NCBI RefSeq assembly: GCF_014836775.1
Contig: NZ_JACSQD010000006.1
Coordinates: forward strand, 186,001-250,000
DNA from: Arthrobacter gallicola
GTDB taxonomy: Bacteria; Actinomycetota; Actinomycetes; Actinomycetales; Micrococcaceae
Reading direction: 5' to 3'
Length of the DNA: 64,000 bases
This document shows positions 41,534-53,991 of the stretch, one piece after another. The notes beneath the pieces were generated by a model, which had not been told where the DNA came from, ran no database searches, and saw only the letters and a program-made list of their open reading frames with translations. The position numbers and the translations under genes were made by a program. Each line of letters opens with the position of its first letter. Position 1 is the stretch's first letter.

Positions 41534-42889
41534 TCAGGGACAGGGCGGCAGCGCCTTGTCCACCAGCCAAGGCGCCAGCACCGCAGCGGGATCTATTCCG
41601 GTTCCGGCATATCTCCGGCCGGCCAGTTCCAGAAACTCGGTCGTAGAGGCATTCCCGTACCGGAACTCTTCGGTCCAGGAACGCACCAGCCCAAAAAACA
41701 GGCTGTCCGGAGCCGAGCGCCGCAGCGCGTGCAGTGCCAGTCCCCCGCGGACATACAGACGGTCATCGAACATCCGCTCCGGTCCTGGAGAGACCAGGCA
41801 GAGGTTCTCCGACCGGCGTGAGAGCCATTGCCAGGCCTCCATGCCCAGCTCGTCCGCGGATTGCCGTCCGGCCGCTTCAGACCACAGCCACTCCGCATAG
41901 GTGGCAAACCCCTCGTGCAGCCAGATGTCCTGCCAGCCAGCCGCAGTGACCGAGTTGCCAAACCACTGGTGAGCCAGCTCGTGGGCCAGCAGCCGCCGGG
42001 ATTTGCGGCCAAGATGGTTCCGTCCCAGGACGGTGACGGTCTGCGCTTCCAAGGGGATTTCCAGCTTGTCCTCGGTGACCACCACCGTGTAACTGCCGAA
42101 TGGGTACGGCCCGAACCAGTGCTCGAAGGCCGCGAACATCCGGTCCTGCTCCGCCAAAGCTGCCCGGGCTTTGGATAACAGCCGGTCTGGAGCGGCGAGC
42201 AGCTGCACCGGGCTCGTCAGTTCTGGGCCCGGGGTGCCAAGGCGCACCTGCTCATATCTACCGATCTGCACCGTGGCGAGGTACGCGGGCATAGGCTCGG
42301 GCTGATCGAAGATCCAGGTCCGCCGCCCGGCCTGCGCCGTTTCACCGCTGCAGGTGCCGTTGGCAATCACCCGGTATTCCTCCTCCACCGTTACCGCAAA
42401 CCGGTAGGACGCCTTGTCTGCCGGGTGGTCATTGCAGGGAAACCAGGTGGGTGCGCCTGCCGGCTGGCCGGCGGTCAGCGCGCCGTCGGTCAGTTCCTCC
42501 CAGCCGATGCTCCCCCACGGACCGTCCAGCGGCTGGGGAAATCCGGTGTAGCGGATCCGCAGCGCGAATACCGCGCCGGAGGTGAGCCGGGCCGGCAGCG
42601 TGATCTGCAGGTGCTGCCTGTTCTGGGTGAAGGGGAGCTGCATACCGCCGGCTTCGACCTGGCTGACTGCCAGCTGGGCCTGGAGATCAAGGACGACGCC
42701 GGCCAGCGGCTCCCGCGCCACCAGCTCAAGATCGGCTGTCCCGGTCAGGAGGTTGGCGGTTACTGAGTAGTCCAGATCAAGGCTGTACCTGGTGACAGCA
42801 TATTCAGTGTGCCCGTGGCCGGGCGCATAGTCGATGTCAGCGGACTGTGCCTGCTGAAAATGTTCAAGGGAGGGGTCGGCGGCGCGCAT
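41534..42889 (-). CDS. M1-family zinc metallopeptidase (possible polylysine-degrading/self-protection peptidase)
   Basis: 451 residues, cytoplasmic (no signal). HELAHQWFGN (residues about 303-312) and downstream WLHEGFATYAEW supply the HEXXH-X18-E zinc ligands. The exopeptidase GXMEN motif is not canonical: the corresponding stretch reads LEIPLEAQTV. The protein lacks the large C-terminal helical domain of aminopeptidase N and is close to short actinobacterial M1 enzymes. M1-type aminopeptidases have been linked to degradation of epsilon-polylysine in producing Streptomyces (recalled, not checked), and its place as last gene of the pls operon fits that role. Separated by 78 bp from the small gene upstream. 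Confidence 0.85.
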   Translation of the reverse strand: MRAADPSLEHFQQAQSADIDYAPGHGHTEYAVTRYSLDLDYSVTANLLTGTADLELVAREPLAGVVLDLQAQLAVSQVEAGGMQLPFTQNRQHLQITLPARLTSGAVFALRIRYTGFPQPLDGPWGSIGWEELTDGALTAGQPAGAPTWFPCNDHPADKASYRFAVTVEEEYRVIANGTCSGETAQAGRRTWIFDQPEPMPAYLATVQIGRYEQVRLGTPGPELTSPVQLLAAPDRLLSKARAALAEQDRMFAAFEHWFGPYPFGSYTVVVTEDKLEIPLEAQTVTVLGRNHLGRKSRRLLAHELAHQWFGNSVTAAGWQDIWLHEGFATYAEWLWSEAAGRQSADELGMEAWQWLSRRSENLCLVSPGPERMFDDRLYVRGGLALHALRRSAPDSLFFGLVRSWTEEFRYGNASTTEFLELAGRRYAGTGIDPAAVLAPWLVDKALPPCP

Positions 42890-42967
42890 GGGGCCTGATC
42901 CTGCCAGCCCAGCGGGCTTTTGTCAGCCGTAGTAACTGACTGGTTGCCCCGGTTCCAACGCCGGCGC

Positions 42968-43012
42968 TTATTTATCTGCGTCTTCGGCGGTTTTATCTGC
43001 GTCTTCAGCGGT
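42968..43012 (-). repeat. 21-bp duplication at the end of the 72-residue gene
   Basis: Two copies differing by one base encode TAEDADK twice at the C-terminus. Confidence 0.75.
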
Positions 43013-43186
43013 GCGCTGCCAGCGCGCCTGAGTCGCCTCCGGGAGCTCCTCCCACGGCGGAGCCGGGGGCATCCAGAGTCCCGGAAGCAGCTGCATCCGT
43101 TCCTCGTACAAGGCTTTTCCCTCCGGGTAACCTGCCGAAGAGTCACTCTGGCCCGTTCCCGGGAGGTCTCCGAAGCTGTTTCCCAT
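42968..43186 (-). CDS. Small acidic/proline-rich protein in the pls operon
   Basis: 72 residues from ATG 43186 (MGNSFGDLPGTG). The minus-strand box TAGACT (43195-43200) lies 8 nt before it; an in-frame GTG at 43246 would give 92 residues. GYPEGKALYEERMQLLPGLWMPPAPPWEELPEAT is followed by a perfect C-terminal duplication TAEDADK-TAEDADK. No transmembrane segment or known domain. It may be a regulatory partner or an independently transcribed short gene. Coding likelihood rests on codon use and on its place in a tight operon. Confidence 0.6.
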   Translation of the reverse strand: MGNSFGDLPGTGQSDSSAGYPEGKALYEERMQLLPGLWMPPAPPWEELPEATQARWQRTAEDADKTAEDADK

Positions 43187-43194
43187 GATGTAAA

Positions 43195-43200
43195 AGTCTA
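43195..43200 (-). promoter_or_regulatory. -10 element TAGACT before the 72-residue gene
   Basis: Minus-strand TAGACT, 8 nt from ATG 43186; suggests an internal leaderless promoter inside the operon. Confidence 0.4.
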
Positions 43201-43255
43201 GCCGTGCCGCTGCCGGTGCCGAACCGGTCGGTTGCGGGTGGGTCACAGAAGGAAG

Positions 43256-44359
43256 CTATTGGGGCACTTGGGCTTCCCGTTCGGCTGCTTCAGCCCGTTC
43301 CGCCCGTTCCGCCCGTGACGAGCGCAGCTTGGCAACGAGGTAAGCCGCGAAGAGGGCAACGGAGAACCCGGCGACGGCGTACGGTTCCCAGTGAGGATCT
43401 GCCGCTTCGGCCTCCCGTGCCGCAGCGGCTTTGGCCGCTGCGCGTTCCTCCACTGCCCGCTCTTCCGCTGCTTGTTTCGCTGCCTCGCGGGCTGCTGCAG
43501 CGGCGTCGGAGCGTGCGGTGGAGGCGATAAACACGTCGTCCTGGATTCCCATGACCATCCGGTCCCCCGGGACAGCGCTGCGCAGGAAGGTTGTCACCGT
43601 CGCAAGATCGGTGGAGATGCATCCCCAGGTTTTGGCGTTGCCGGCATGCAGAAAAATGGCGAAGGAGGCTCCCTGGGTGACGGGCATGTCCGGCGGCCGG
43701 TTCCAGTTGATGACCGCCGCCTGCTCGTAGAGCCCGCTGTTCATATACCGCCACAGGTTCTCATCTGCCGGACCTCCAGTGCCCTCAAAATACTGGTTGT
43801 ACGTTGGCCCTTTTTCACCGCCCCAGCGTGATGATTCGTTTACGGTGTAGTACGCCAGTTCGGTTCCCGGATTCTTCCGGCCAAGTGCCTCGGTAACAGT
43901 GAAGGTCCCGGTGGGCGAGTACAGCGTGTTCTCCCACATCCGGCCTGCAGGGGCGAACCCGCTGCGGCCGGCGAACCCGGTGGCCTGCCACTCCTGCTCA
44001 TACCCTCCGTCCCCGTCTGCAACGCACCCGGTGATCAGCACCTCCGACTCACCGTAGGCGCGGGCGGTGGCGAACGTGACCCTGTCGGCCGTACCGACGT
44101 CGAACTTCACTTCATCTGCAGCCAGCCGGGCACAGGGATTGGGCGACACACCGCTGATTGCGGCTGCTGTCGGGGACGGCACAGCCGCTGGTGCAGTTGC
44201 TGCGGCGCCCGCCGTGGCCGTTGTTGTCACACCAGCAGTGGCCGTTGCTGTTTTCTCCGGGGGCAGCGCAAGAACCGGCGCCGCCCCCGGAAGGAGCAGC
44301 GCCGCAGCGGCACTCAAGGCCGCACTGATGCGCGGAATCCCGCGCAGTTCCGCTTTCAC
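43256..44359 (-). CDS. L,D-transpeptidase-like (YkuD) protein with C-terminal membrane anchor
   Basis: 367 residues. An N-terminal hydrophobic signal segment (AALSAAAALLLPGAAPVLA) and an Ala/Thr/Pro linker lead to a YkuD-type domain with FAIFLHAGNAKTWGCIST (Cys about residue 245 the nucleophile, His upstream). Then come an Ala/Glu/Arg-rich coiled stretch, one hydrophobic helix (YAVAGFSVALFAAYLVAKL) and a charged tail, a layout unlike standard peptidoglycan L,D-transpeptidases. L,D-transpeptidases form 3-3 cross-links or attach molecules to diaminopimelate. Placed in the pls operon, attachment or exclusion of a lysine polymer at the wall is an idea only. Its GTG overlaps the previous stop. Confidence 0.85.
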   Translation of the reverse strand: MKAELRGIPRISAALSAAAALLLPGAAPVLALPPEKTATATAGVTTTATAGAAATAPAAVPSPTAAAISGVSPNPCARLAADEVKFDVGTADRVTFATARAYGESEVLITGCVADGDGGYEQEWQATGFAGRSGFAPAGRMWENTLYSPTGTFTVTEALGRKNPGTELAYYTVNESSRWGGEKGPTYNQYFEGTGGPADENLWRYMNSGLYEQAAVINWNRPPDMPVTQGASFAIFLHAGNAKTWGCISTDLATVTTFLRSAVPGDRMVMGIQDDVFIASTARSDAAAAAREAAKQAAEERAVEERAAAKAAAAREAEAADPHWEPYAVAGFSVALFAAYLVAKLRSSRAERAERAEAAEREAQVPQ

Positions 44360-45750
44360 GGACCGGGGAGGGGTGGGTCGGGATCCCCGTCGCCGGTCCG
44401 GTGCTGGCCGGGTTCAGGGGTACGTGTGCCGGTGCTGTGCTTAGCGCGGCCCGCACGGTCAGTGGCCGGAGCGCCCGCACGGTTGGTGGCCTGGGTGCCT
44501 GCACGGTCGGTGGCCGGAGCGCTGCCAGCGCGGGCGAGCACGGTCTTACGCGTGCGGTTCACTGCCGATGAGACCAGATGCTCCAGCGGCCCCTGCCCCC
44601 GCTTCCGCGCCCAGACGAGCGCGAAGGCCGTGAACAGGCCAACCTGCACCAGCATGGAGATCTCCGGAGCGTCTGCCAGCAGGCCGGTGGCCAGCAGAAG
44701 CAGGTGCGCGGTGTAAAGCGTGAGTGTCATCGACCCCATAGCCGCCAGGGGGAAGAAGACCGGGCGTGCCCACTGACCCAGCAGGAGCAGCGCCGCCAGC
44801 ACGGCAACGGAGATGCCGATGGTGTTCAGGATGACCAGCGGGGTGCTGGAATACGGCGCCAGTCCGGCCAGCCACCACCAGGAATCTGTGGGCAGGGTTG
44901 TTCCCGGTCCCCACGTCAGAGTGTCGCTCACCATTACCGGATCGCCATAGAGCGCTTCCAGGCTCTTCCGTCCCCCGCCCGGTCCCAGCAGGAACGCGGA
45001 GACCAGGGTGGTGAGGAGCGCCAGTCCGCAGCCGCCGGCGAACAGGCCGGTCTGCACCCGGCGGCTGCGCAGATCCAGCCTGCCGATTGCCAGGCCCGCA
45101 CAGATAAACGCCATCCATGGCAGGGCCGGGTACACACCGGTAAGCAGAAGCTGGGCGGCCGTAACGTCAAAATGGGTGACCAAACCGGAGATGGTGGGTT
45201 GGTCCACCCCCGGGTCGGGAAGGTAGTCGCGCAGCCCCTGCATCAGGAAGGGCATCAGCAGTGCGGTCAATCCCGCCAGACACATCAAAGCACGCGCTGA
45301 AAGCCTCAGCAGCGGCAGCGCCAGCAGGAACATCACGCCGTAGTACGCGAGGATCACCTGGGCCTCAATGTCCAGGTATCCCAGCAGCAGCCCGATCACT
45401 GCGATGATGCCCGCACGGACCGCAATTCCAGCCCGGGTGGCGGTCATGGCCGGCCCGTTCAGGCGGCGGACACCTCCGGAGGAGAGCGCAAGCGACAGCC
45501 CGGCCAGTAAGGCAAAGAGGGCGACGCCGCGCCCGGCGAAGAGTGACCAGGCCCAGGTCGGCTCTAACTCATCATTCACGGACGGCAGAATGTGGATGGC
45601 CATCATGGCCAGCAACGCCAGCCCACGGGCCGCGTCCACCCCCAACAGCCTGGTCTTAGCCGGAACCGTGCCGGTTGCCGCACCTGCCCGGTGACCGGGC
45701 AGGTGTCCCTGTGCTGTTCCTGTGGGAGAACGCTCCGGATCCGCTGTCAT
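44356..45750 (-). CDS. DUF1624/DUF418-type membrane protein (copy 1, in the pls operon)
   Basis: 464 residues. About ten hydrophobic segments. LLGVDAARGLALLAMMAIH is the HGSNAT-like (DUF1624) N-terminal signature, and GSMTLTLYTAHLLLLATG the DUF418-like C-terminal part. Such proteins are suspected acyltransferases or transporters; a substrate is not known. The C-terminal 60 residues are cytoplasmic, basic and repetitive (ATDRAG units). ATG overlaps the dapA stop (ATGA) and its own stop overlaps the LDT start. Closely similar to the divergent copy at 51165. Confidence 0.82.
   Translation of the reverse strand: MTADPERSPTGTAQGHLPGHRAGAATGTVPAKTRLLGVDAARGLALLAMMAIHILPSVNDELEPTWAWSLFAGRGVALFALLAGLSLALSSGGVRRLNGPAMTATRAGIAVRAGIIAVIGLLLGYLDIEAQVILAYYGVMFLLALPLLRLSARALMCLAGLTALLMPFLMQGLRDYLPDPGVDQPTISGLVTHFDVTAAQLLLTGVYPALPWMAFICAGLAIGRLDLRSRRVQTGLFAGGCGLALLTTLVSAFLLGPGGGRKSLEALYGDPVMVSDTLTWGPGTTLPTDSWWWLAGLAPYSSTPLVILNTIGISVAVLAALLLLGQWARPVFFPLAAMGSMTLTLYTAHLLLLATGLLADAPEISMLVQVGLFTAFALVWARKRGQGPLEHLVSSAVNRTRKTVLARAGSAPATDRAGTQATNRAGAPATDRAGRAKHSTGTRTPEPGQHRTGDGDPDPPLPGP
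44453..44524 (-). repeat. 24-bp tandem repeat, three copies, in the DUF418-type gene
   Basis: Copies at 44453-44476, 44477-44500 and 44501-44524 encode APATDRAG, TQATNRAG and APATDRAG-like units in the C-terminal tail. Confidence 0.85.
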
Positions 45751-46694
45751 TGGACTTGTGCGGGCAGGAGCACTTCGGAAAGCCCGGAGGTCTCCACGTC
45801 CTGCAGGAAGAGAGCCAATTCCGGCCCGGTGAGGTCCACCAAGGGAAGCCGCACCGGTCCGGAGGGAAGGCCAAGCCGGTTCAGCAGGGCCTTGATGGAG
45901 GCGGCTGCGGGGGCGCGGAAGGCACCGGTGTAGACGGGCAGCAGGCTGCGGTGGATCTGAAGTGCATCCTTGACCCGTCCCTCACTGTAGGCGGCGAGGA
46001 GTGCTGAGAGGCGGTGCGCAGCGACATGGCCAACCACGGAGACGAATCCTGCCGCCCCCACGGAGAGCAGCGGCAAATTGAGCGCGTCGTCCCCGGAGTA
46101 GTAGGCCAGGCCGGTTTCGGCAATGACCTTGGACGTGGATTCCAGGTCACCCTTAGCGTCCTTCACGGCCACGATCCGGGGATGCCTGGACGCGGCTGCC
46201 AGCGTCTCGGGGCTGATCGCCACCCCGGTCCGCTTCGGAATGTCATAGAGCATCACCGGAAGGTCAGTGCTGTCAGCAACTGCCAGGAAGTGACGCAGCA
46301 GCCCGGCCTGGGACGGACGGGAGTAGTACGGCGCCACGACGAGCAGGCCGTCGGCGTACTGGGCCGCCGCTTCCTGTGCCAAGGCAATACTGTGTGCCGT
46401 GTCTCCGGAGCCGACGCCGGCAATCACCTTTTTACCGGTTCCCTGCAGAACGCTGGAGGCGGCGTGCACCATGGAGGCCTTCTCCCAGTTGGAAGTGGCG
46501 AAGGACTCTCCTGTGGTGCCGTTGACCACCACCCCGTCGTTCCAGCCGTCCCGGCACAACCAGCGGACCAGTTCTGCTGCGCCCGGCTGGTCCAGTTTGC
46601 CGGCGGCGTCGAACGGCGTCACCATGGCCGTGAGCACGCGGCCGAAAGCAGCTTCCGCCACCGGGGATTCCTGGAATGCTGTTTCGCTGAACAT
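45747..46694 (-). CDS. dapA: 4-hydroxy-tetrahydrodipicolinate synthase (DapA) in the pls operon
   Basis: 315 residues, class I aldolase fold. GTTGESFATS is the pyruvate/ASA-binding loop, YDIPKRTGV holds the catalytic Tyr, and VAVKDAKGD the Schiff-base Lys. It condenses pyruvate with aspartate semialdehyde, the first committed step to diaminopimelate and lysine. ATG 46694 follows AGGAGAG; the gene starts 13 bp after pls. Position directly behind a lysine-activating NRPS indicates a dedicated precursor supply; the genome's housekeeping dapA should be elsewhere. Residual doubt: some DapA-fold enzymes act on other keto acids. Confidence 0.86.
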   Translation of the reverse strand: MFSETAFQESPVAEAAFGRVLTAMVTPFDAAGKLDQPGAAELVRWLCRDGWNDGVVVNGTTGESFATSNWEKASMVHAASSVLQGTGKKVIAGVGSGDTAHSIALAQEAAAQYADGLLVVAPYYSRPSQAGLLRHFLAVADSTDLPVMLYDIPKRTGVAISPETLAAASRHPRIVAVKDAKGDLESTSKVIAETGLAYYSGDDALNLPLLSVGAAGFVSVVGHVAAHRLSALLAAYSEGRVKDALQIHRSLLPVYTGAFRAPAAASIKALLNRLGLPSGPVRLPLVDLTGPELALFLQDVETSGLSEVLLPAQVQ

Positions 46695-46707
46695 CTTCTC
46701 TCCTGCT

Positions 46708-49700
46708 CTATCGTGATTCGGTGAGGGCGCGCCTGCGGCCGTGTGGACGGCGCGGATCAGCATCTGGGGTCAAAGCATCCCGGTGGACCGGAGCGGCGGC
46801 TGATCCGGCGACGGCGTCCCAGTGGGTCAGTGGGTTTCCGTACCAGGTGCTGTGGGCCGGCACGCTTTCTTCGCGCATGACCAGCGAGCAGCTGCCGACG
46901 GTCGCCCCGTCCTCGATGGTGCTGCCGGGAAGCACAATGCTGTTCGGTCCCAGGGTTGCCCCGGCTCCGATCCAGACGGAATCCATCCGCATGATCCGTT
47001 CGTGGAACAGGTGTGTCTGCAGCACGGTGCCCCGGTTGATGCTTGCACCCTTACCGATTTCGATGAGATCGAATTCCGGCAGCCACCAGGTCTCGCACCA
47101 CACCCCGCGCCCCACGTTCGCGCCCATCCAGCGCAGCCAGGCGTTGAGCATGGGCGTGCCCAGAGACATCCGGACGAGGCCGGGAACCGCAAGCGATTCA
47201 GAGAAGACATCCGCCAGTTCATTGCGCCATACGAAGGAGCTCCAGAGCGGATGTTCCGAAACCTTGAACTGTCCCAGCAGCAGCCACTTCGCCGCGATTG
47301 CCACCAGGGACGCCGCGATTCCGCTCGCAAGCAACACCGGACCGGACCACAGCACGGCTGCCCACAGACCGGCTTCATCAGAGATGAACGCCAGGACAAA
47401 AACAGTGGCCAGCGCCAGCCAGACCGTGATGATTGCCGGAATAATGCGGCACGCCTCCACGGCGGCGCGGGCCAGTTTCAGCCGCAGCGGCGGGTCATAG
47501 GTCCGTGACGAGTCGCCTTCCTCAACCGGGCGGGGGAGTTCGACCGGCGGCCGTCCGAAGAAGGAGGAATATTCCGGCATGTCAGCCGGAGCTGAGGACA
47601 GCACGGCGATGAGCGAGTTGTCCGGCACGCTGACACCGCCGCCCACAATCGCGGAGTTACCAACGAAGGACTTCTCCCCCACCTGTGACGGGCCAAGGGA
47701 GAGCCAGCCCTGCCTGACCTTCGCCACGGAGACCATGGAGTGGTCAGCCAGGAAGGCGCGGTCGCCGACGTCGGTGAGGTGCGGAAGGGTTTCCACGGTG
47801 GAGATTTCAACGTTTTTGCCAACCTTGGCGCCAAGCCATTCCATCCACACCGGAGTCAGCAGACCAGCGTACAGCGGGTACATGGAGATCAGGTTCTTCG
47901 CCAGCAGCTGGTTCGTCAGCCACGCTGCCCAGCCGGTCGGACCGTCCAGGGGATGCATCCCCGCCGGCAGCAGCGATCGGAGCATGCGGACGGAAAAGAC
48001 TGTCAGTGCCAGGTAGGTGCCCATGGTCAGCACCACAAAGACGGGGGCCCAAAGGGCCAGTTCAAACAGCGCCGGTCCAAGGTCCCGGGCGTCCTGAAGC
48101 AGCAGGAGGACCAGCATCGAGCCGGGGAGTACCGCCAGCAGCGTCATGATGGTGAGCCAGGACAGGCCCGCCGTGTACAGCAGGTTCATCCCCGCCGGGC
48201 CCTTGGCTCCGTGGTTCTGGGGCCAGCCTTCACCGGCCGAGCCGAGGTATTCCATCGGGGATCCGGACCACTTTTCGCCCGGGGGCACCTGCCCTGAGAC
48301 AAAGGTTCCCGGTTCAATCTCACTGCCGGCACCAATCCGTGCGTCTCCCGTGACCGTGGAGCGCGCCCCTACCCGGCTGTGCGCGCCGATCCGGACGTGC
48401 CCAATGTGCAGAAGGTGGCCGTCGAGCCAGTGCCCGGCGAGGTCCACTTCATATTCTACGGCGGCACCGTCATCAATCTGCGCCAGCCCGGTCACCGGAG
48501 GCATGGCTTCCAGGTGCACGTTTCGCCCGATGCTGCAGCCCAGTGCGCGGGCATACCAGAGTCCGAGCGGGGTTCCCATGATGGGTTCGAGCTTGCCGTA
48601 CGTGACAATGCGTTCCGCTGCCCAGAGCCGTAGATGGGTTCCTCCGCCGCGGGCATAAACGCCGGGCCGTATCCGGAACAGCAGCGTCCGGCACGCAAGG
48701 ATGGCGCCCAGCATGCGGGCCGGAAGGCTGTAGAGCACAAACCAGGCGGCCACCAGCGGCAGCAGCGGCGGATTAGGCGTCCATGGCGTGGCCAGCACGT
48801 TGCTCATGACCCAGCAGACGATCGCGATCCCGGTGACGTAGCGCAGTCCGGTGATTGCGTAGAGCCCGGCGATCAGCGGGGCTTGAACCAGTCCGGTCCA
48901 CCAGGGGGTGTTCGGGACCTCGCGCTTGGCGGCGCCGTTGTCCGTGGTCTGGCGAAGCCGCTCGGCCATCGCGAGGAGGGAGGGATTGGCATAGATATCG
49001 GCAATGGAAACCTTCGGGTAGCGTTCCCGCAGCGCCGAGACAAGCTGCGCGGCCGCGAGGCTCGCGCCGCCCAGGGCGAAAAAATCGCTGTCCTTGGTCA
49101 GTGGCTGCGGGCCGAGGAGGTCCGTCCAGCGCTGAGCGAGCCAGCGGAGGTCAGCGTTGAGCTCCACCTCGACGTCCAGCTGCTGCTCCACCGCTTTTTC
49201 GGGGACGCTGAGCGCGTTGCGGTCCACCTTGCCGGAGGATTTCATCGGCAGCTCGTCGATGATCCGCAGGGTGGGAACCAGTGTGGCCGGCAGCCGGGTA
49301 CTGAGTTCGGTCCGGGCGCCTGCCAGGTCCACCTCCCCCGGTGCGGATTCAACCAGGTAGCCCACCAGAATCTCGTTGCCGCTGGCCGTAACCTGCACGG
49401 CGGCTGCGGCGCTGGTGACTCCCGGCAGGGCCGTCAGCGCGTGGTCGATCTCCCCCAGTTCCACCCGCCGGCCGGCGAGTTTCACCTGTTCGTCCAGGCG
49501 GCCGGCGAAAATGAGTCCTTCGCGCTCGGCCCGCACCTTGTCTCCGCTGCGGTACGCGCGGTTCCAGCCCAGGGAGGGCAGCGGCGCGTACTTCACGGCG
49601 CTGATCTCAGGGTCCAGGTAGCGGGCCAGGCCGACGCCGCCAATCACCAGTTCGCCTTCCTCGCCCCAGGCCACCGGGTTGCCGTCCGAATCCACGACGG

Positions 49701-50796
49701 CGAGGTCCCAGCCTTCCAGCGGAAGGCCGATGCGGACGGGATCGGTGCCGTCCAGCGGCGCAGCGCAGGCGATGACGGTGGCCTCGGTGGGCCCATAGGT
49801 GTTCCAGACTTCCCTGCCCGGCCCCGAAAGCCGGGCACCGAGTTCCACGGGGCAGGCTTCGCCGCCGAAGATCAGCAACCGGATTCGGCTGACGATCTCC
49901 GCCGGCCAGACTGAGGCCAGGGTCGGCACGGTGGAGACCACCGTGATTTTGCGTTCCAGGAGCCATGGACCGAGGTCAATGATGGAGCGGACCACTGAGC
50001 GGGGTGCCGGGACCAGGCAGGCACCGTGCGCCCAGGCCAGCCACATCTCCTCGCAGGAAGCATCGAATGTCACGGAGAGTCCGGCGAGGACCCGGTCTCC
50101 CGGGCGGAGCGGTTCGTCAACGCAGTAGAGACGGGATTCCGCGTCAACCAGCGCGGCAGCGGAACGGTGCGTCACCGCAACACCCTTGGGCTTGCCGGTG
50201 GAGCCGGAGGTAAAGATGATCCACGCGTCGTCCTCGGGATGCGGTTCCGGACCGCTGCCGTGGATGGGCACACCCTGCCGTACGGTCAGCTGCAGTCCTT
50301 CACCGATCACGGCGCAGACTCCGCCTTCGGCCCAGACAACGTCCGCGCGGCCCGAGGGCTCGTCGGCGTCGACCGGTACATAGGCAGCGCCGGAAAAGAG
50401 GACTCCCAGGATGGCGATATACAGATCCATGGTCCCGGAAGGAACCAGGATCCCTACCCTGTCTCCGGCACCGATGCTCGCTGACCAGAGTTTCCGGGCC
50501 AGGGTGTTGACCCGGTCGTGGAGCTCGGCATAGGTCAGCGTTTCCGTTCCGTCATCGAGAGCCGGCGCCGATGGATACGCTGCTGCCGTTTCGGTGAAAA
50601 TGTCGACCAGTGTGCGCTGCTCCGGCGCGGGGCCGCCGTAGTAGACGGCCCGGTCCGGCGCGAGCGTGGTGCGGCTGAATACCCGCTCCCGGTCGGCTTC
50701 CGTCCGGGCCGGCGCCGTGGTGCTGCCTGTGCGGGTGCTTTGACGGATTCCCTTCGTTGTACTCAGTGGTTCGGACCGGTCTTCGGACAGCGTCAT
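46708..50796 (-). CDS. Pls/PosA-type single-module NRPS (poly-lysine synthetase-like)
   Basis: 1,362 residues. An adenylation domain (about 50-540) with IIFTSGSTGKPKG (A3), FDASCEEMW (A4), NTYGPTEAT (A5) and MKSSGKVDR (A10 Lys) is followed by a thiolation domain with DFFALGGASL (Ser about 575). The long C-terminal part (about 640-1340) alternates hydrophobic helices with hexapeptide-like blocks (VRIGAHSRVGARSTVTGDARIGAGSEI). No condensation or thioesterase domain in the standard sense; this is the architecture and length of epsilon-polylysine and related isopeptide synthetases. By alignment with GrsA the pocket reads D-A-E-S-I-G-T-V-I-K, close to the lysine code. GAAGGAAG precedes ATG 50796. 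Membrane-bound; needs phosphopantetheine. Confidence 0.87.
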   Translation of the reverse strand: MTLSEDRSEPLSTTKGIRQSTRTGSTTAPARTEADRERVFSRTTLAPDRAVYYGGPAPEQRTLVDIFTETAAAYPSAPALDDGTETLTYAELHDRVNTLARKLWSASIGAGDRVGILVPSGTMDLYIAILGVLFSGAAYVPVDADEPSGRADVVWAEGGVCAVIGEGLQLTVRQGVPIHGSGPEPHPEDDAWIIFTSGSTGKPKGVAVTHRSAAALVDAESRLYCVDEPLRPGDRVLAGLSVTFDASCEEMWLAWAHGACLVPAPRSVVRSIIDLGPWLLERKITVVSTVPTLASVWPAEIVSRIRLLIFGGEACPVELGARLSGPGREVWNTYGPTEATVIACAAPLDGTDPVRIGLPLEGWDLAVVDSDGNPVAWGEEGELVIGGVGLARYLDPEISAVKYAPLPSLGWNRAYRSGDKVRAEREGLIFAGRLDEQVKLAGRRVELGEIDHALTALPGVTSAAAAVQVTASGNEILVGYLVESAPGEVDLAGARTELSTRLPATLVPTLRIIDELPMKSSGKVDRNALSVPEKAVEQQLDVEVELNADLRWLAQRWTDLLGPQPLTKDSDFFALGGASLAAAQLVSALRERYPKVSIADIYANPSLLAMAERLRQTTDNGAAKREVPNTPWWTGLVQAPLIAGLYAITGLRYVTGIAIVCWVMSNVLATPWTPNPPLLPLVAAWFVLYSLPARMLGAILACRTLLFRIRPGVYARGGGTHLRLWAAERIVTYGKLEPIMGTPLGLWYARALGCSIGRNVHLEAMPPVTGLAQIDDGAAVEYEVDLAGHWLDGHLLHIGHVRIGAHSRVGARSTVTGDARIGAGSEIEPGTFVSGQVPPGEKWSGSPMEYLGSAGEGWPQNHGAKGPAGMNLLYTAGLSWLTIMTLLAVLPGSMLVLLLLQDARDLGPALFELALWAPVFVVLTMGTYLALTVFSVRMLRSLLPAGMHPLDGPTGWAAWLTNQLLAKNLISMYPLYAGLLTPVWMEWLGAKVGKNVEISTVETLPHLTDVGDRAFLADHSMVSVAKVRQGWLSLGPSQVGEKSFVGNSAIVGGGVSVPDNSLIAVLSSAPADMPEYSSFFGRPPVELPRPVEEGDSSRTYDPPLRLKLARAAVEACRIIPAIITVWLALATVFVLAFISDEAGLWAAVLWSGPVLLASGIAASLVAIAAKWLLLGQFKVSEHPLWSSFVWRNELADVFSESLAVPGLVRMSLGTPMLNAWLRWMGANVGRGVWCETWWLPEFDLIEIGKGASINRGTVLQTHLFHERIMRMDSVWIGAGATLGPNSIVLPGSTIEDGATVGSCSLVMREESVPAHSTWYGNPLTHWDAVAGSAAAPVHRDALTPDADPRRPHGRRRALTESR

Positions 50797-50940
50797 CGGG
50801 TTTTTCTTCCTTCGTGGCACGGCATGGCATGGCTTTTGTGCCGCATTGCCCTGTCTTTCAGAAGACACTCGATCAAGCGGCCTCAAGTAGCCTAGGGACG
50901 GCTTTCAGACCTGAACATGAGTACCGCGGCCTGCCCTCTA

Positions 50941-50963
50941 CGGTCCGGTACGTAGCCGGACCG
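50941..50963. promoter_or_regulatory. Inverted repeat CGGTCCGG-N7-CCGGACCG upstream of pls
   Basis: 8-bp perfect arms (50941-50948 with 50956-50963) in the 368-bp spacer between pls and its divergent DUF418-type paralogue. Operator or leader hairpin of the pls transcript. A second hairpin, CGGCGG-N6-CCGCCG (51122-51139), lies before the paralogue's ribosome site. No gene is seen in the spacer. Confidence 0.5.
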
Positions 50964-51164
50964 GAAGCCATTACTGGTGCTCTACTCGTTCCTCCGCCGC
51001 TGACCTCGTGATACTCAAGGTTCACAGGCAACTCCCAGAAAGCGCATAGCCTCAGCACAGTCCACATTGTTTGCCTCAGACCAGCCGTCCAAGGCAAAGT
51101 GACGGGCAAGCGGCGCTCAACCGGCGGAAAGAACCGCCGTCGACGCAGCATTTGAAGGGGATCC

Positions 51165-52364
51165 ATGAGCACTTCCGGCACCACGCCAAAAGTTAGGTTT
51201 ACGGGAATTGATGCGGCGCGGGGAATCGCTCTGATCGGCATGATGGCGATCCATGTGCTCCCGGAGGTGTCGGACGATTACGGCCCTACCTGGTCCTGGT
51301 CTCTGTTCGCTGGAAAGTCGGCTGCACTGTTCGCTCTGCTTGCCGGAGTCACCCTGGCACTTTCGGCTGGCGGAGTGCGTCCCAAGCGGGGCCTGGATCT
51401 GGCGGCGGTACGCCGGGGAACCGCGGTGCGGGCGGTGATCGTCGGCGCGATCGGACTAACAGTCGCCTATATTGATATGCCCGCTTTCATCATCCTGGCC
51501 TACTACGGCGTGATGTTCCTGCTGGCGGTTCCCCTGCTGGGTCTTTCCGCGCGGACGCTCTTTGCAGCGGCGGCGGGCTTCGCCATCCTGGGCCCAACCC
51601 TGATGGCACTCCTGCGCGGCTACCTGCCCGCACCCGGGTTCGACCCAACGTTTACGGCCCTGTTCACGGACCCGTGGCAAACCGTGACCCAGCTCCTGCT
51701 GACCGGGACTTATCCGGCCATCCCCTGGATGGCGTACATCTGTGCCGGGCTCGCCATCGGGCGGCTGCGGCTCGGGGAATGGAAAACCCAGACGGCGATC
51801 CTGGTGGCGGGCGCCGGCACCGCCCTCGCCGCTGCCTTGGTCTCTGCCTTGCTGCTGGGACCGCTGGGCGGCCTCGAACAGATAGTGGCCGCCACCCCGG
51901 ACATGGACACCGAAGCGGTCCGTGATGTCCTCATCTGGGGACCATCCGGATACCTGCCGACGACGACGTTCTGGTGGTTCGCCATCCTTGCTCCGCACTC
52001 CACCACTCCACTGGACCTCCTGTACACCATTGGAGTTGCCGCGGCCGTGCTCGGTGCCATGCTCCTGCTCAGCCGGGTTGCCGAACGCTACCTGCTTCCG
52101 CTCGCTGCGGCAGGCAGTATGACGCTGACCCTGTACACGGGCCATCTGCTGATCCTGGGCAGCGGCTTCTACGAGGACCAGCCGGAAGTTTCCCTGGTGC
52201 TGCAGGTTGCTGCGGTGATCGCATTCGCCCTGATTTGGCGGAGGTTCCACAGCCAGGGGCCGCTGGAAGAGCTGGTGGGAAAGGCCGCCGGCGCGGCCCG
52301 CCGGCGGGTGCTGGAACGGGGCAGGCAAGTGCCCACAGCTGAAAACGGACCGGGGACATCCTGA
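51165..52364 (+). CDS. DUF1624/DUF418-type membrane protein (copy 2)
   Basis: 399 residues, about ten transmembrane segments, paralogous to the protein at 44356 over its whole membrane part (GIDAARGIALIGMMAIHVLP; AYYGVMFLLAVPLLGLSAR; GSMTLTLYTGHLLILGSGF). It lacks the long repetitive tail of copy 1. Family members are considered integral membrane acyltransferases or carriers; function unknown. The ATG follows a GAAGGGG ribosome site. Divergent from pls and convergent with the phosphopantetheinyl transferase gene (27-bp gap); probably controlled by the shared upstream region. Confidence 0.82.
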   Translation: MSTSGTTPKVRFTGIDAARGIALIGMMAIHVLPEVSDDYGPTWSWSLFAGKSAALFALLAGVTLALSAGGVRPKRGLDLAAVRRGTAVRAVIVGAIGLTVAYIDMPAFIILAYYGVMFLLAVPLLGLSARTLFAAAAGFAILGPTLMALLRGYLPAPGFDPTFTALFTDPWQTVTQLLLTGTYPAIPWMAYICAGLAIGRLRLGEWKTQTAILVAGAGTALAAALVSALLLGPLGGLEQIVAATPDMDTEAVRDVLIWGPSGYLPTTTFWWFAILAPHSTTPLDLLYTIGVAAAVLGAMLLLSRVAERYLLPLAAAGSMTLTLYTGHLLILGSGFYEDQPEVSLVLQVAAVIAFALIWRRFHSQGPLEELVGKAAGAARRRVLERGRQVPTAENGPGTS

Positions 52365-52391
52365 GCTGGAGCCTGATCATGGGGGCCGGGG

Positions 52392-53159
52392 TTAGGCTCG
52401 GCTGCGGTACTCGACCCGGACCTCCCCAGCGGCCGGCACGGCCGCGGCAGCGAACAACCCGGGTGAAAGCATCCGGGTATCCAGGTCCATGACTGACATT
52501 CGTCCCCCGGACGGCCCGGCGGCCACGGTGGAATCCGCGGTGAGCTCCACTCCCACGTCAACCAGGTGCGGCGCGATCCGCAGCCCGTCCCCCGAGGCTT
52601 TAAGGACCGCTTCTTTCCGGGTCCACAACCGAGCCTGGCGCACTGCCCGCTCAGCCGGCCCAACGGCGTCGTACTGTGCCTGTTCGGCCTCCGTAGCAAT
52701 CACCGCGTCCAGGCGGGGATCACCGAACCCGGTGACATCCGCCAGATCCACTCCCACAGGCCCGGTGGCGCTGGCTCCGGCGAGCAGCCACGGTCCGCAG
52801 CGGCTGAAGCTGACCTGGAACGGCACTGGCTTTCCGTGCACCAGGTAGCGCGGAATTCCGTGGCTCTGTGTCGAGGCAGCACGGCACTGCGGGCATTGGT
52901 AGTCGGCGGCGGCCACCGCAGGGTCGACGCCGGCGAGCGCGGCCACGAACCGGCGGGCTGCCTGCCGGGAGGCGACAAAACGGCGCTGCACCGCCGGTAT
53001 TGCGAAGGCCCGGGCGCGCAGCAGTTCGGCCGGAGTCAGCGGAGCTTCCGCCGGGTCAGGTTCCTCCAGCGGTAAAACGGCGACCGTCAGCAGCACCGCG
53101 GGCGCGCGTGCTGCGGTTCCCCCGGTTGCCTCAGTTCGTGCCCCAGTCCAGGTTGTCAT
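52392..53159 (-). CDS. 4'-phosphopantetheinyl transferase (Sfp-type)
   Basis: 255 residues. GVDLADV and WTRKEAVLKASGDG are the Mg2+/CoA-binding motifs P1 and P3 of Sfp-type transferases, which convert apo carrier proteins to the holo form. An N-terminal extension of about 50 residues (ARAFAIPAVQRRFVASRQAARR) matches family start regions. A cysteine pair CPQC in the middle is unusual. It is adjacent to the pls locus and is the obvious candidate to activate its thiolation domain. TAGGGT 8 nt before ATG 53159 suggests a leaderless message. Confidence 0.88.
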   Translation of the reverse strand: MTTWTGARTEATGGTAARAPAVLLTVAVLPLEEPDPAEAPLTPAELLRARAFAIPAVQRRFVASRQAARRFVAALAGVDPAVAAADYQCPQCRAASTQSHGIPRYLVHGKPVPFQVSFSRCGPWLLAGASATGPVGVDLADVTGFGDPRLDAVIATEAEQAQYDAVGPAERAVRQARLWTRKEAVLKASGDGLRIAPHLVDVGVELTADSTVAAGPSGGRMSVMDLDTRMLSPGLFAAAAVPAAGEVRVEYRSRA

Positions 53160-53262: not shown

Positions 53263-53991
53263 TTGCGGACCTTTGTGTTGGTTGAAATCTGGTCCGATAT
53301 CGGATGTCCCTGGTGTTTTATTGGCAAGCGGCGCTTTGAGACCGCCCTGTCCCGCTTCGAGCATGCGGCGGAGGTGGAGGTCCGCTGGCGCAGCTACCAG
53401 CTGGATCCCTCCGTGCCCGAGCATTTCGACGGCAGCGAGGTGGACTACCTCAGCAAGGTCAAGGGCATGGACCCGGCCCAGGTGGCGGGAATGCTGGAGC
53501 ATGTTTCGTCCCAAGCCGCTGGCGAGGGCCTGAACTACCGGTTCGACGAGCTGGTGGTGGCCAACAGTTTCACCGCTCACCGGCTCATTCACCTCGTACG
53601 GGACTCCGGTGGCGAGAAGGCCGCGGCGGCCGTCAAGGAGGCGCTGCTCTCCGCGCACTTTGAAAAGGGCCTGGACATCGCCAGTCATGATGTCCTTGCA
53701 GAGATCGGCGCCCAGGCGGGCCTGGATCCGGAGACCGTGCGCTCCACGCTCGCCGGCACCGGCTACACCGAGGCGGTGGAGCAGGACGTAGCCGAGGCCC
53801 GGGCCCTGGGTGTCAGTGGTGTCCCGTTCTTTGTGCTGGACCGCAGGTACGGCATTTCCGGAGCGCAGCCCGCCGAGCTATTTGAACAGGCGCTGGCCCA
53901 GGCATGGGAAGCCGGGCACCAGCCGCTGCAGCCCGCAGCGGCGGCCGCATCTGCCGACGGCGCCGCCTGTTCAGCGGACGGCTGCAGCTAG
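53263..53991 (+). CDS. DsbA family oxidoreductase (FrnE-like)
   Basis: 242 residues. EIWSDIGCPWCFIGKRRFE carries the CPWC redox pair (Cys15, Cys18), and GVSGVPFFVLD is the cis-Pro loop. The helical insertion and HDVLAEIGAQAGLD segment are of the FrnE/2-hydroxychromene-2-carboxylate isomerase-like group. No signal peptide, so cytoplasmic. TTG 53263 is chosen because GGAGGG lies 9 nt before it; GTG 53275 is possible. The C-terminus ends in an Ala-rich tail with two cysteines. Confidence 0.86.
   Translation: MRTFVLVEIWSDIGCPWCFIGKRRFETALSRFEHAAEVEVRWRSYQLDPSVPEHFDGSEVDYLSKVKGMDPAQVAGMLEHVSSQAAGEGLNYRFDELVVANSFTAHRLIHLVRDSGGEKAAAAVKEALLSAHFEKGLDIASHDVLAEIGAQAGLDPETVRSTLAGTGYTEAVEQDVAEARALGVSGVPFFVLDRRYGISGAQPAELFEQALAQAWEAGHQPLQPAAAAASADGAACSADGCS

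Follow-up and report, generated by a model that had tools for sequence, protein, structure and literature searches.

Positions 41,534 to 53,159 of the window analyzed here (the whole stretch of 64,000 nucleotides from Arthrobacter gallicola, contig NZ_JACSQD010000006.1, positions 186,001 to 250,000 of the forward strand; contig C11 of the 3.65 Mb genome in our numbering) hold a cassette of eight genes around pls, a gene for a Pls/PosA-type synthetase of a predicted lysine isopeptide polymer (46708..50796, minus strand). Downstream of pls and on the same strand follow dapA for a second, cluster-borne 4-hydroxy-tetrahydrodipicolinate synthase (45747..46694), a gene for a transmembrane acyltransferase (TmAT) of the HGSNAT_cat/YeiB type (TmAT1, 44356..45750), one for an L,D-transpeptidase (LDT)-fold protein predicted to be membrane-anchored and outward-facing (43256..44359), one for a conserved small protein of 72 residues (42968..43186), and one for a PldII-like M1 metallopeptidase (41534..42889). 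On the other side of pls lie the plus-strand gene for TmAT2 (51165..52364), a diverged duplicate of TmAT1, and the minus-strand gene for a 4’-phosphopantetheinyl transferase (PPTase; 52392..53159) that is not AcpS-sized. A re-check of the open reading frames bore out the run of six minus-strand genes and the pair on its far side that a first-pass annotation, made from the letters alone, had reported, together with their coordinates, gaps, and overlaps: with the gene starts of that annotation, pls and dapA are 13 bp apart, dapA and TmAT1, like TmAT1 and the LDT-fold gene, overlap by 4 nt, and 69 and 78 bp separate the LDT-fold gene from the small gene and the latter from the M1 gene. All eight frames are open. 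Family matches likewise agreed with that annotation for the M1 peptidase (PF01433, 80 bits; PF17900, 60.2 bits), for DapA (TIGR00674 equivalog, 246.4 bits at a cut-off of 206.15; Pfam DHDPS, 252 bits), and for the PPTase (PF01648, the ACPS family), and the membrane protein encoded on the far side is indeed a paralogue, TmAT2 being 56% identical to TmAT1.

The synthetase, whose closest named record is from Arthrobacter pullicola (93%), a species that likewise has the cassette, combines AMP-binding (PF00501), PP-binding (PF00550), and hexapeptide domains according to Pfam, and its adenylation and thiolation domains are followed by the Pls/PosA terminal domain (NCBIfam NRPS_term_dom, TIGR02353; 600.6 bits versus a cut-off of 423.1). 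Among solved structures, its best match is 7wew (604 bits), an epsilon-poly-L-lysine synthase whose product serves as a natural food preservative. Ten pocket positions were read off the alignment to 7wew, using the columns that we take to form the specificity code in the GrsA scheme. The resulting code, DAESIGTVIK, differs from DAESIGTVVK in 7wew by I instead of V at a single position. According to the PosA paper, Ala at the second pocket position is associated with lysine, and the amine of the side chain is contacted by Glu, Thr, and Ser. The pocket of the window’s Pls has this Glu and Thr; at the Ser position it has I, and 7wew has V. Because the code is nearly identical to that of 7wew and the Ala, Glu, and Thr contacts are in place, lysine is the likely monomer, and the terminal-domain match and the code thus uphold the initial view of a Pls-type synthetase with lysine specificity.

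To place the cassette among its relatives, we compared 141 Pls proteins, representing 129 distinct ones after merging 12 identical entries, and added 21 loci with short flanks to obtain 150 rows; the sources were the best 80 of at least 594 relatives, 20 regions, 40 further regions taken from the highest-ranking entries of the family list, and the 21 short-flank loci. Class TmAT was defined by a same-strand TmAT gene within 1.3 kb of the pls end, leaving room for an interposed dapA, and class M1 by a same-strand M1 gene within 2.2 kb after pls without such a TmAT gene, so that adjacency of either gene to pls defines the class and is not itself a finding. By these definitions, 53 rows (including the window’s Pls) belong to the TmAT class, 87 to the M1 class, and 10 to neither, class sizes that do not reflect frequencies in nature, as rows were chosen by similarity to the window’s Pls. 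What does constitute a finding is the distribution of the two labels on the Pls tree (FastTree, 149 rows after exclusion of the truncated L065): a single change accounts for all 140 labeled rows, and, when the rows of neither class are counted as others, the TmAT group requires 3 changes and the M1 group 4. Named TmAT-class rows are from Arthrobacter, Nesterenkonia, Citricoccus, Zafaria, Paeniglutamicibacter, Kocuria, and Corynebacterium. The comparison of neighborhoods across Micrococcaceae, which the first-pass annotation had proposed as a check, thus found the cluster context kept in several members.

The split extends to the pocket code and to the partner genes. Among the 129 rows with wide flanks, the code is DAESIGTVVK in all M1-class enzymes (67/67), whereas the TmAT class has DAESIGTVIK in 46 of 53 and DAESIGTIIK in two; the remaining five, two named Nesterenkonia rows and three that group with them, carry the M1-class code. 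DapA (29/53), the LDT-fold protein (27/53, with 17 genes on the pls strand and 10 on the other), and the small protein (32/53) are encoded near TmAT-class pls genes, and none of the three was found near any of the 67 M1-class pls genes. For 21 of the 53 TmAT-class clusters, neither dapA nor an LDT-fold, small-protein, M1, or PPTase gene was found nearby; four named rows from Kocuria and two from Corynebacterium are among them. Conversely, a TmAT gene lies near only one of the 67 M1-class pls genes, in L052, at 2.6 kb upstream. As to the rows of neither class, L078 carries a DapA piece, L175 shows a weak TmAT match downstream, and both L056 and L175 have one upstream on the other strand. In L056 (G045:C63), the TmAT gene is located about 0.4 kb upstream of the gene for a Pls-like synthetase with the code DFEYNGTVTK, and the link of TmATs to Pls-like synthetases may therefore extend past polylysine.

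The two membrane proteins had been annotated as a DUF1624/DUF418 pair. They are membrane proteins, but their family is that of the transmembrane acyltransferases: HGSNAT_cat (PF07786) matches TmAT1 with 49.8 and TmAT2 with 51 bits at a cut-off of 22, while for DUF418 Pfam yields only a TmAT2 match of 21 bits, below the cut-off of 23.6. The motif DxxR-x10-H is present in 84 of the 85 TmATs compared, both window proteins included; the family match and the motif together rule out that the two represent no known kind of protein. The TmAT paper describes this motif as the form that the conserved residues take in the AT3 family. HGSNAT and YeiB are counted among the TmAT superfamily proteins, which bring acyl-CoA through the membrane to an external acceptor, and human HGSNAT in this way acetylates the amino group of glucosamine. 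In the TmAT tree, TmAT2 falls into a clade of 12 divergent upstream copies, next to one that holds 32 downstream copies, and 13 generic copies form a clade of their own apart from the Pls-linked TmATs; within the genus, TmAT2 groups in this tree as a duplicate of TmAT1. A separate observation concerns the generic TmAT gene, which has another dapA at a distance of 0.1–0.2 kb and in divergent orientation in 8 of 9 genus genomes checked (G000:C10:58704-60888, i.e. L004, as well as L227 and L229 to L234; no dapA within the 4.5 kb of L228), so that TmAT and dapA are neighbors at two separate loci.

Of the 29 genomes of the genus compared, 12 contain pls. Exactly these 12 also encode the LDT-fold protein, the small protein, and the PPTase, none of which was found in the 17 genomes lacking pls, and TmAT genes number three in each pls-bearing genome and exactly one in each of the others (E up to 1e-8). 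The genes flanking the cassette encode malate synthase and a LytR_C protein. Both reside on one contig, with no pls between them, in 16 of the 17 genomes without pls; the seventeenth, G010, gave no LytR_C match. The flanking genes are 12.2 to 14.7 kb apart when the cassette is present, and 0.9 kb (four genomes) or 2.4 to 14.7 kb (the other twelve) apart when it is absent. Cassette presence requires 5 gains or losses by parsimony, at least 3 of them forced by well-supported branches, on a tree of one flanking gene (LytR_C). This co-presence, along with the split on the Pls tree, rules out a chance grouping of the genes.

A DsbA-like gene (53263-53991, plus strand; PF01323) adjoins the cassette on the PPTase side in the window and two relatives, and on the M1 side in eight; no match was obtained in one. 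Because its position varies between the sides, we regard the block from M1 to PPTase as the unit. The switch of sides points either to two places of insertion or to a single site that was rearranged. Residual PPTase matches of 18-36 amino acids in four genomes lacking pls run antisense to the start of dsbA and were not counted. Five genomes without pls (L218, L223, L224, L225, L226) have sites spanning 7.1 to 14.7 kb, of which a permease gene and dsbA cover only a part; such sites may mark an insertion hot spot.

The assignment of the putative wall enzyme demands some caution. The earlier label ‘L,D-transpeptidase-like’ is supported by the fold and by invariant His and Cys residues, but not by Pfam, in which no family reaches its cut-off for this protein and the YkuD family PF03734 scores 13.9 bits, below the threshold of 23.4. 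For this reason, we did not place the protein in PF03734 and refer to it as LDT-fold. Weak YkuD matches at E ≤ 1 were seen for 20 of 22 alignment members, the window’s included (best E 0.0006), and H238, G240, G246, and C247 are invariant in all 22. An AlphaFold2 model (mean pLDDT, the per-residue confidence score, of 80.8; residues 1-48 below 50) matched L,D-transpeptidases best among solved structures, with a Z of 11.5; rows 1-47 of the structure comparison, all with Z of at least 8.8, are by title mostly L,D-transpeptidases, YkuD, Csd6, or Pgp2. Foldseek alone also had L,D-transpeptidases on top, with a best E of 0.037 and no match at E ≤ 0.001, and a search of the alignment against the sequences of solved structures returned three chance-level matches, all to chitinase A. 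The protein thus shares fold, His, and Cys with the L,D-transpeptidases (YkuD, Csd6, Pgp2), but deviates in its sub-threshold Pfam score and in the HxG-x5-GC spacing, which is presumably shorter than usual in these enzymes. Simple patterns point to hydrophobic spans at residues 14-32 and 327-345, to a span near the C-terminus in 12 of 22 members, and to a lipobox-like N-terminus in five others (L062, L137, L141, L143, L155), suggesting that the protein is likely an outward, membrane-held enzyme. The genome’s one YkuD-family match lies outside the cluster.

HExxH-x18-E is found in 86 of 86 M1 rows compared, and the window’s M1 peptidase has an exopeptidase-motif variant of LEIPLEAQ type, which it shares with peptidases encoded directly after pls elsewhere. 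Besides the cluster-borne dapA, the genome holds one dapA-like gene whose product is 42% identical (contig C10) and two more distant relatives. The solved enzymes closest to the cluster’s DapA are actinobacterial and lysine-insensitive anyway, and the idea that a feedback-resistant DapA might point to overproduction of lysine was dropped. One other PPTase-family match occurs in the genome, in a 127-codon open frame. The 72-residue protein has no Pfam family and is modeled as two helices (mean pLDDT 69); homologues occur in the same cluster in other genera (e.g., L140:3223-3456), and some genomes have a second match elsewhere.

How does the cassette relate to systems in print? Jiang 2021 described Pls homologues in Arthrobacter and relatives, argued for lysine as the substrate, and reported pls together with a peptidase gene (pldII) in Corynebacterium variabile, whose Pls made epsilon-polylysine in a foreign host, Streptomyces coelicolor M145, under the control of the S. 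albulus pls promoter; C. variabile itself yielded no product in laboratory culture. In Streptomyces albulus, pldII is reported to be translationally coupled to pls and needed for self-protection. The role of such polymers for the producer is called unclear in both Jiang 2021 and PMC9606270. With these pls-pldII systems the cassette shares Pls architecture, lysine code, and a PldII-like M1 peptidase; there, however, the peptidase gene adjoins pls, while here dapA and TmAT1 follow and the M1 gene comes last, after the LDT-fold and small genes. Moreover, PldII of S. albulus has been reported outside the membrane, whereas simple hydropathy gave no hydrophobic span for the window’s M1 peptidase. 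PosA (delta-polyornithine; Acinetobacter) and other cationic homopolyamino acid (CHPA) synthetases are the same kind of enzyme with the same pocket layout, but PosA forms a single-gene operon and has the code DMEHNGTVSK, in contrast to the cassette’s Pls with its seven partners. The cluster TmATs share PF07786 and DxxR-x10-H with HGSNAT and YeiB; a polyamine polymer acceptor, as proposed here, is not mentioned in the portion of the HGSNAT/YeiB literature available to us. The first-pass view of the combination as undescribed has to be narrowed accordingly: Pls in Arthrobacter and pls with M1 are in print, whereas we found no report of the acyltransferase class. No description of TmAT, LDT, or dapA beside pls was found in searches of one open-access library, mostly at the level of abstracts, so that absence from print is unproven. 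The known part of the cassette is the polymer machine; the new part is the tailoring set, along with the split of pls loci into an M1 and a TmAT class.

What the sequences show directly are gene content, protein families, pocket code, the two classes of pls, the joint occurrence of the genes within the genus, and sites free of the cassette; every reaction proposed in the following is inferred. We hold with moderate confidence that the eight genes form a cassette for exported epsilon-polylysine that would be N-acylated outside the membrane after its synthesis. DapA would raise the lysine supply and the PPTase would arm the carrier domain of Pls, which, by analogy to its family, would activate lysine, form epsilon-amide bonds at the membrane, and release the polymer outward. 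Chemical modification of the polymer is predicted because TmAT with dapA takes the place of pldII after pls, and we argue for an acylated exported product since a transmembrane acyltransferase accompanies pls in a second Pls clade. TmAT1 from the operon and the divergently encoded TmAT2 would, in a HGSNAT-like manner, move acyl groups from cytoplasmic acyl-CoA to the alpha-amines of the polymer, which in epsilon-polylysine are free and chemically available. Acylation might tune charge, length, or toxicity and take over or share the self-protective function of PldII, and the PldII-like M1 peptidase would trim or recycle the chains. The LDT-fold protein, on the outer face of the membrane, might act on peptidoglycan or on its bond to the polymer, the weakest step of the scheme.

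Several observations weigh against this scheme. The polymer as TmAT acceptor is a proposal, and acylation would strip charge and weaken an antimicrobial. M1 genes also occur in 20 of the 53 TmAT-class clusters (17 on the pls strand, 3 on the other), none being found near pls in the remaining 33, and the TmAT is thus not a simple replacement for M1; PPTase genes lie near 9 of 67 M1-class pls genes and hence are not special to the TmAT class. Simple hydropathy assigned 8 and 7 strong membrane spans to the two TmATs instead of 10, and a generic TmAT is present in all 29 genomes of the genus. Beyond the genus, LDT homologues are found in 91 of 395 family genomes, among them G347 and G374 without a Pls match at the cut-off used; 37 of the 395 encode the small protein, including G167, likewise without a Pls match. 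Finally, co-presence in one block is no proof that the polymer is the target of every gene product.

Both LDTs and YeiB-type enzymes work in the cell envelope, and it is conceivable, though less likely than acylation of the polymer, that the cassette yields plain secreted epsilon-polylysine while TmATs and LDT-fold protein modify the producer’s own envelope for polycation tolerance, e.g., by acylating wall or lipids and introducing 3-3 cross-links. The nearly unaltered pocket code and the epsilon-polylysine made in a foreign host by the C. variabile Pls, whose cluster has a peptidase, would be in line with an unmodified product. By itself, however, this would not explain why the TmAT keeps company with pls in a single clade of the Pls tree, including the 21 of 53 clusters in which none of the other partners was found nearby.

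Attachment of the polymer to the wall by the LDT-fold protein is possible in principle. A wall-bound polyamide that this protein joins to peptidoglycan (or frees from it), compatible with acylation, seems doubtful to us: the fold, the invariant His and Cys, and an occurrence near TmAT-class but not M1-class pls genes and in all pls-positive but no pls-negative genomes of the genus argue for it, yet 26 of 53 TmAT-class clusters have no LDT-fold gene, LDT homologues are also encoded elsewhere than beside pls, even in genomes that gave no Pls match, and acceptor and donor are only hypothetical. Rather unlikely, in our estimate, is the combination of both, a wall-attached, N-acylated polylysine as a novel type of Gram-positive envelope polymer, made by a nonribosomal peptide synthetase, anchored by the LDT-fold protein, and adjusted in charge by the acyltransferases, in place of a secreted antibiotic. 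Quite improbable, lastly, are another monomer (beta-lysine or another diamino acid) or a silent cluster, for which the code difference between the classes (one position in 46 of 53 rows, two in 2) and the lack of product in C. variabile culture may be cited, but against which stand the lysine-compatible Ala, Glu, and Thr of the pocket, the absence of an aminomutase among the cluster’s genes by Pfam annotation, and the eight open frames.

A second class of pls operons, in which a membrane acyltransferase accompanies pls where the first class has a self-protective hydrolase, raises the question of whether such polymers are capped rather than cut. If so, the products would be modified polylysines that differ in charge, toxicity, and material behavior, self-protection would be achieved via N-acylation at the outer face of the membrane, and a candidate substrate would be at hand for bacterial YeiB/HGSNAT proteins, for most of which we know of no acceptor. 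Screens for plain cationic polymer may overlook the TmAT class.

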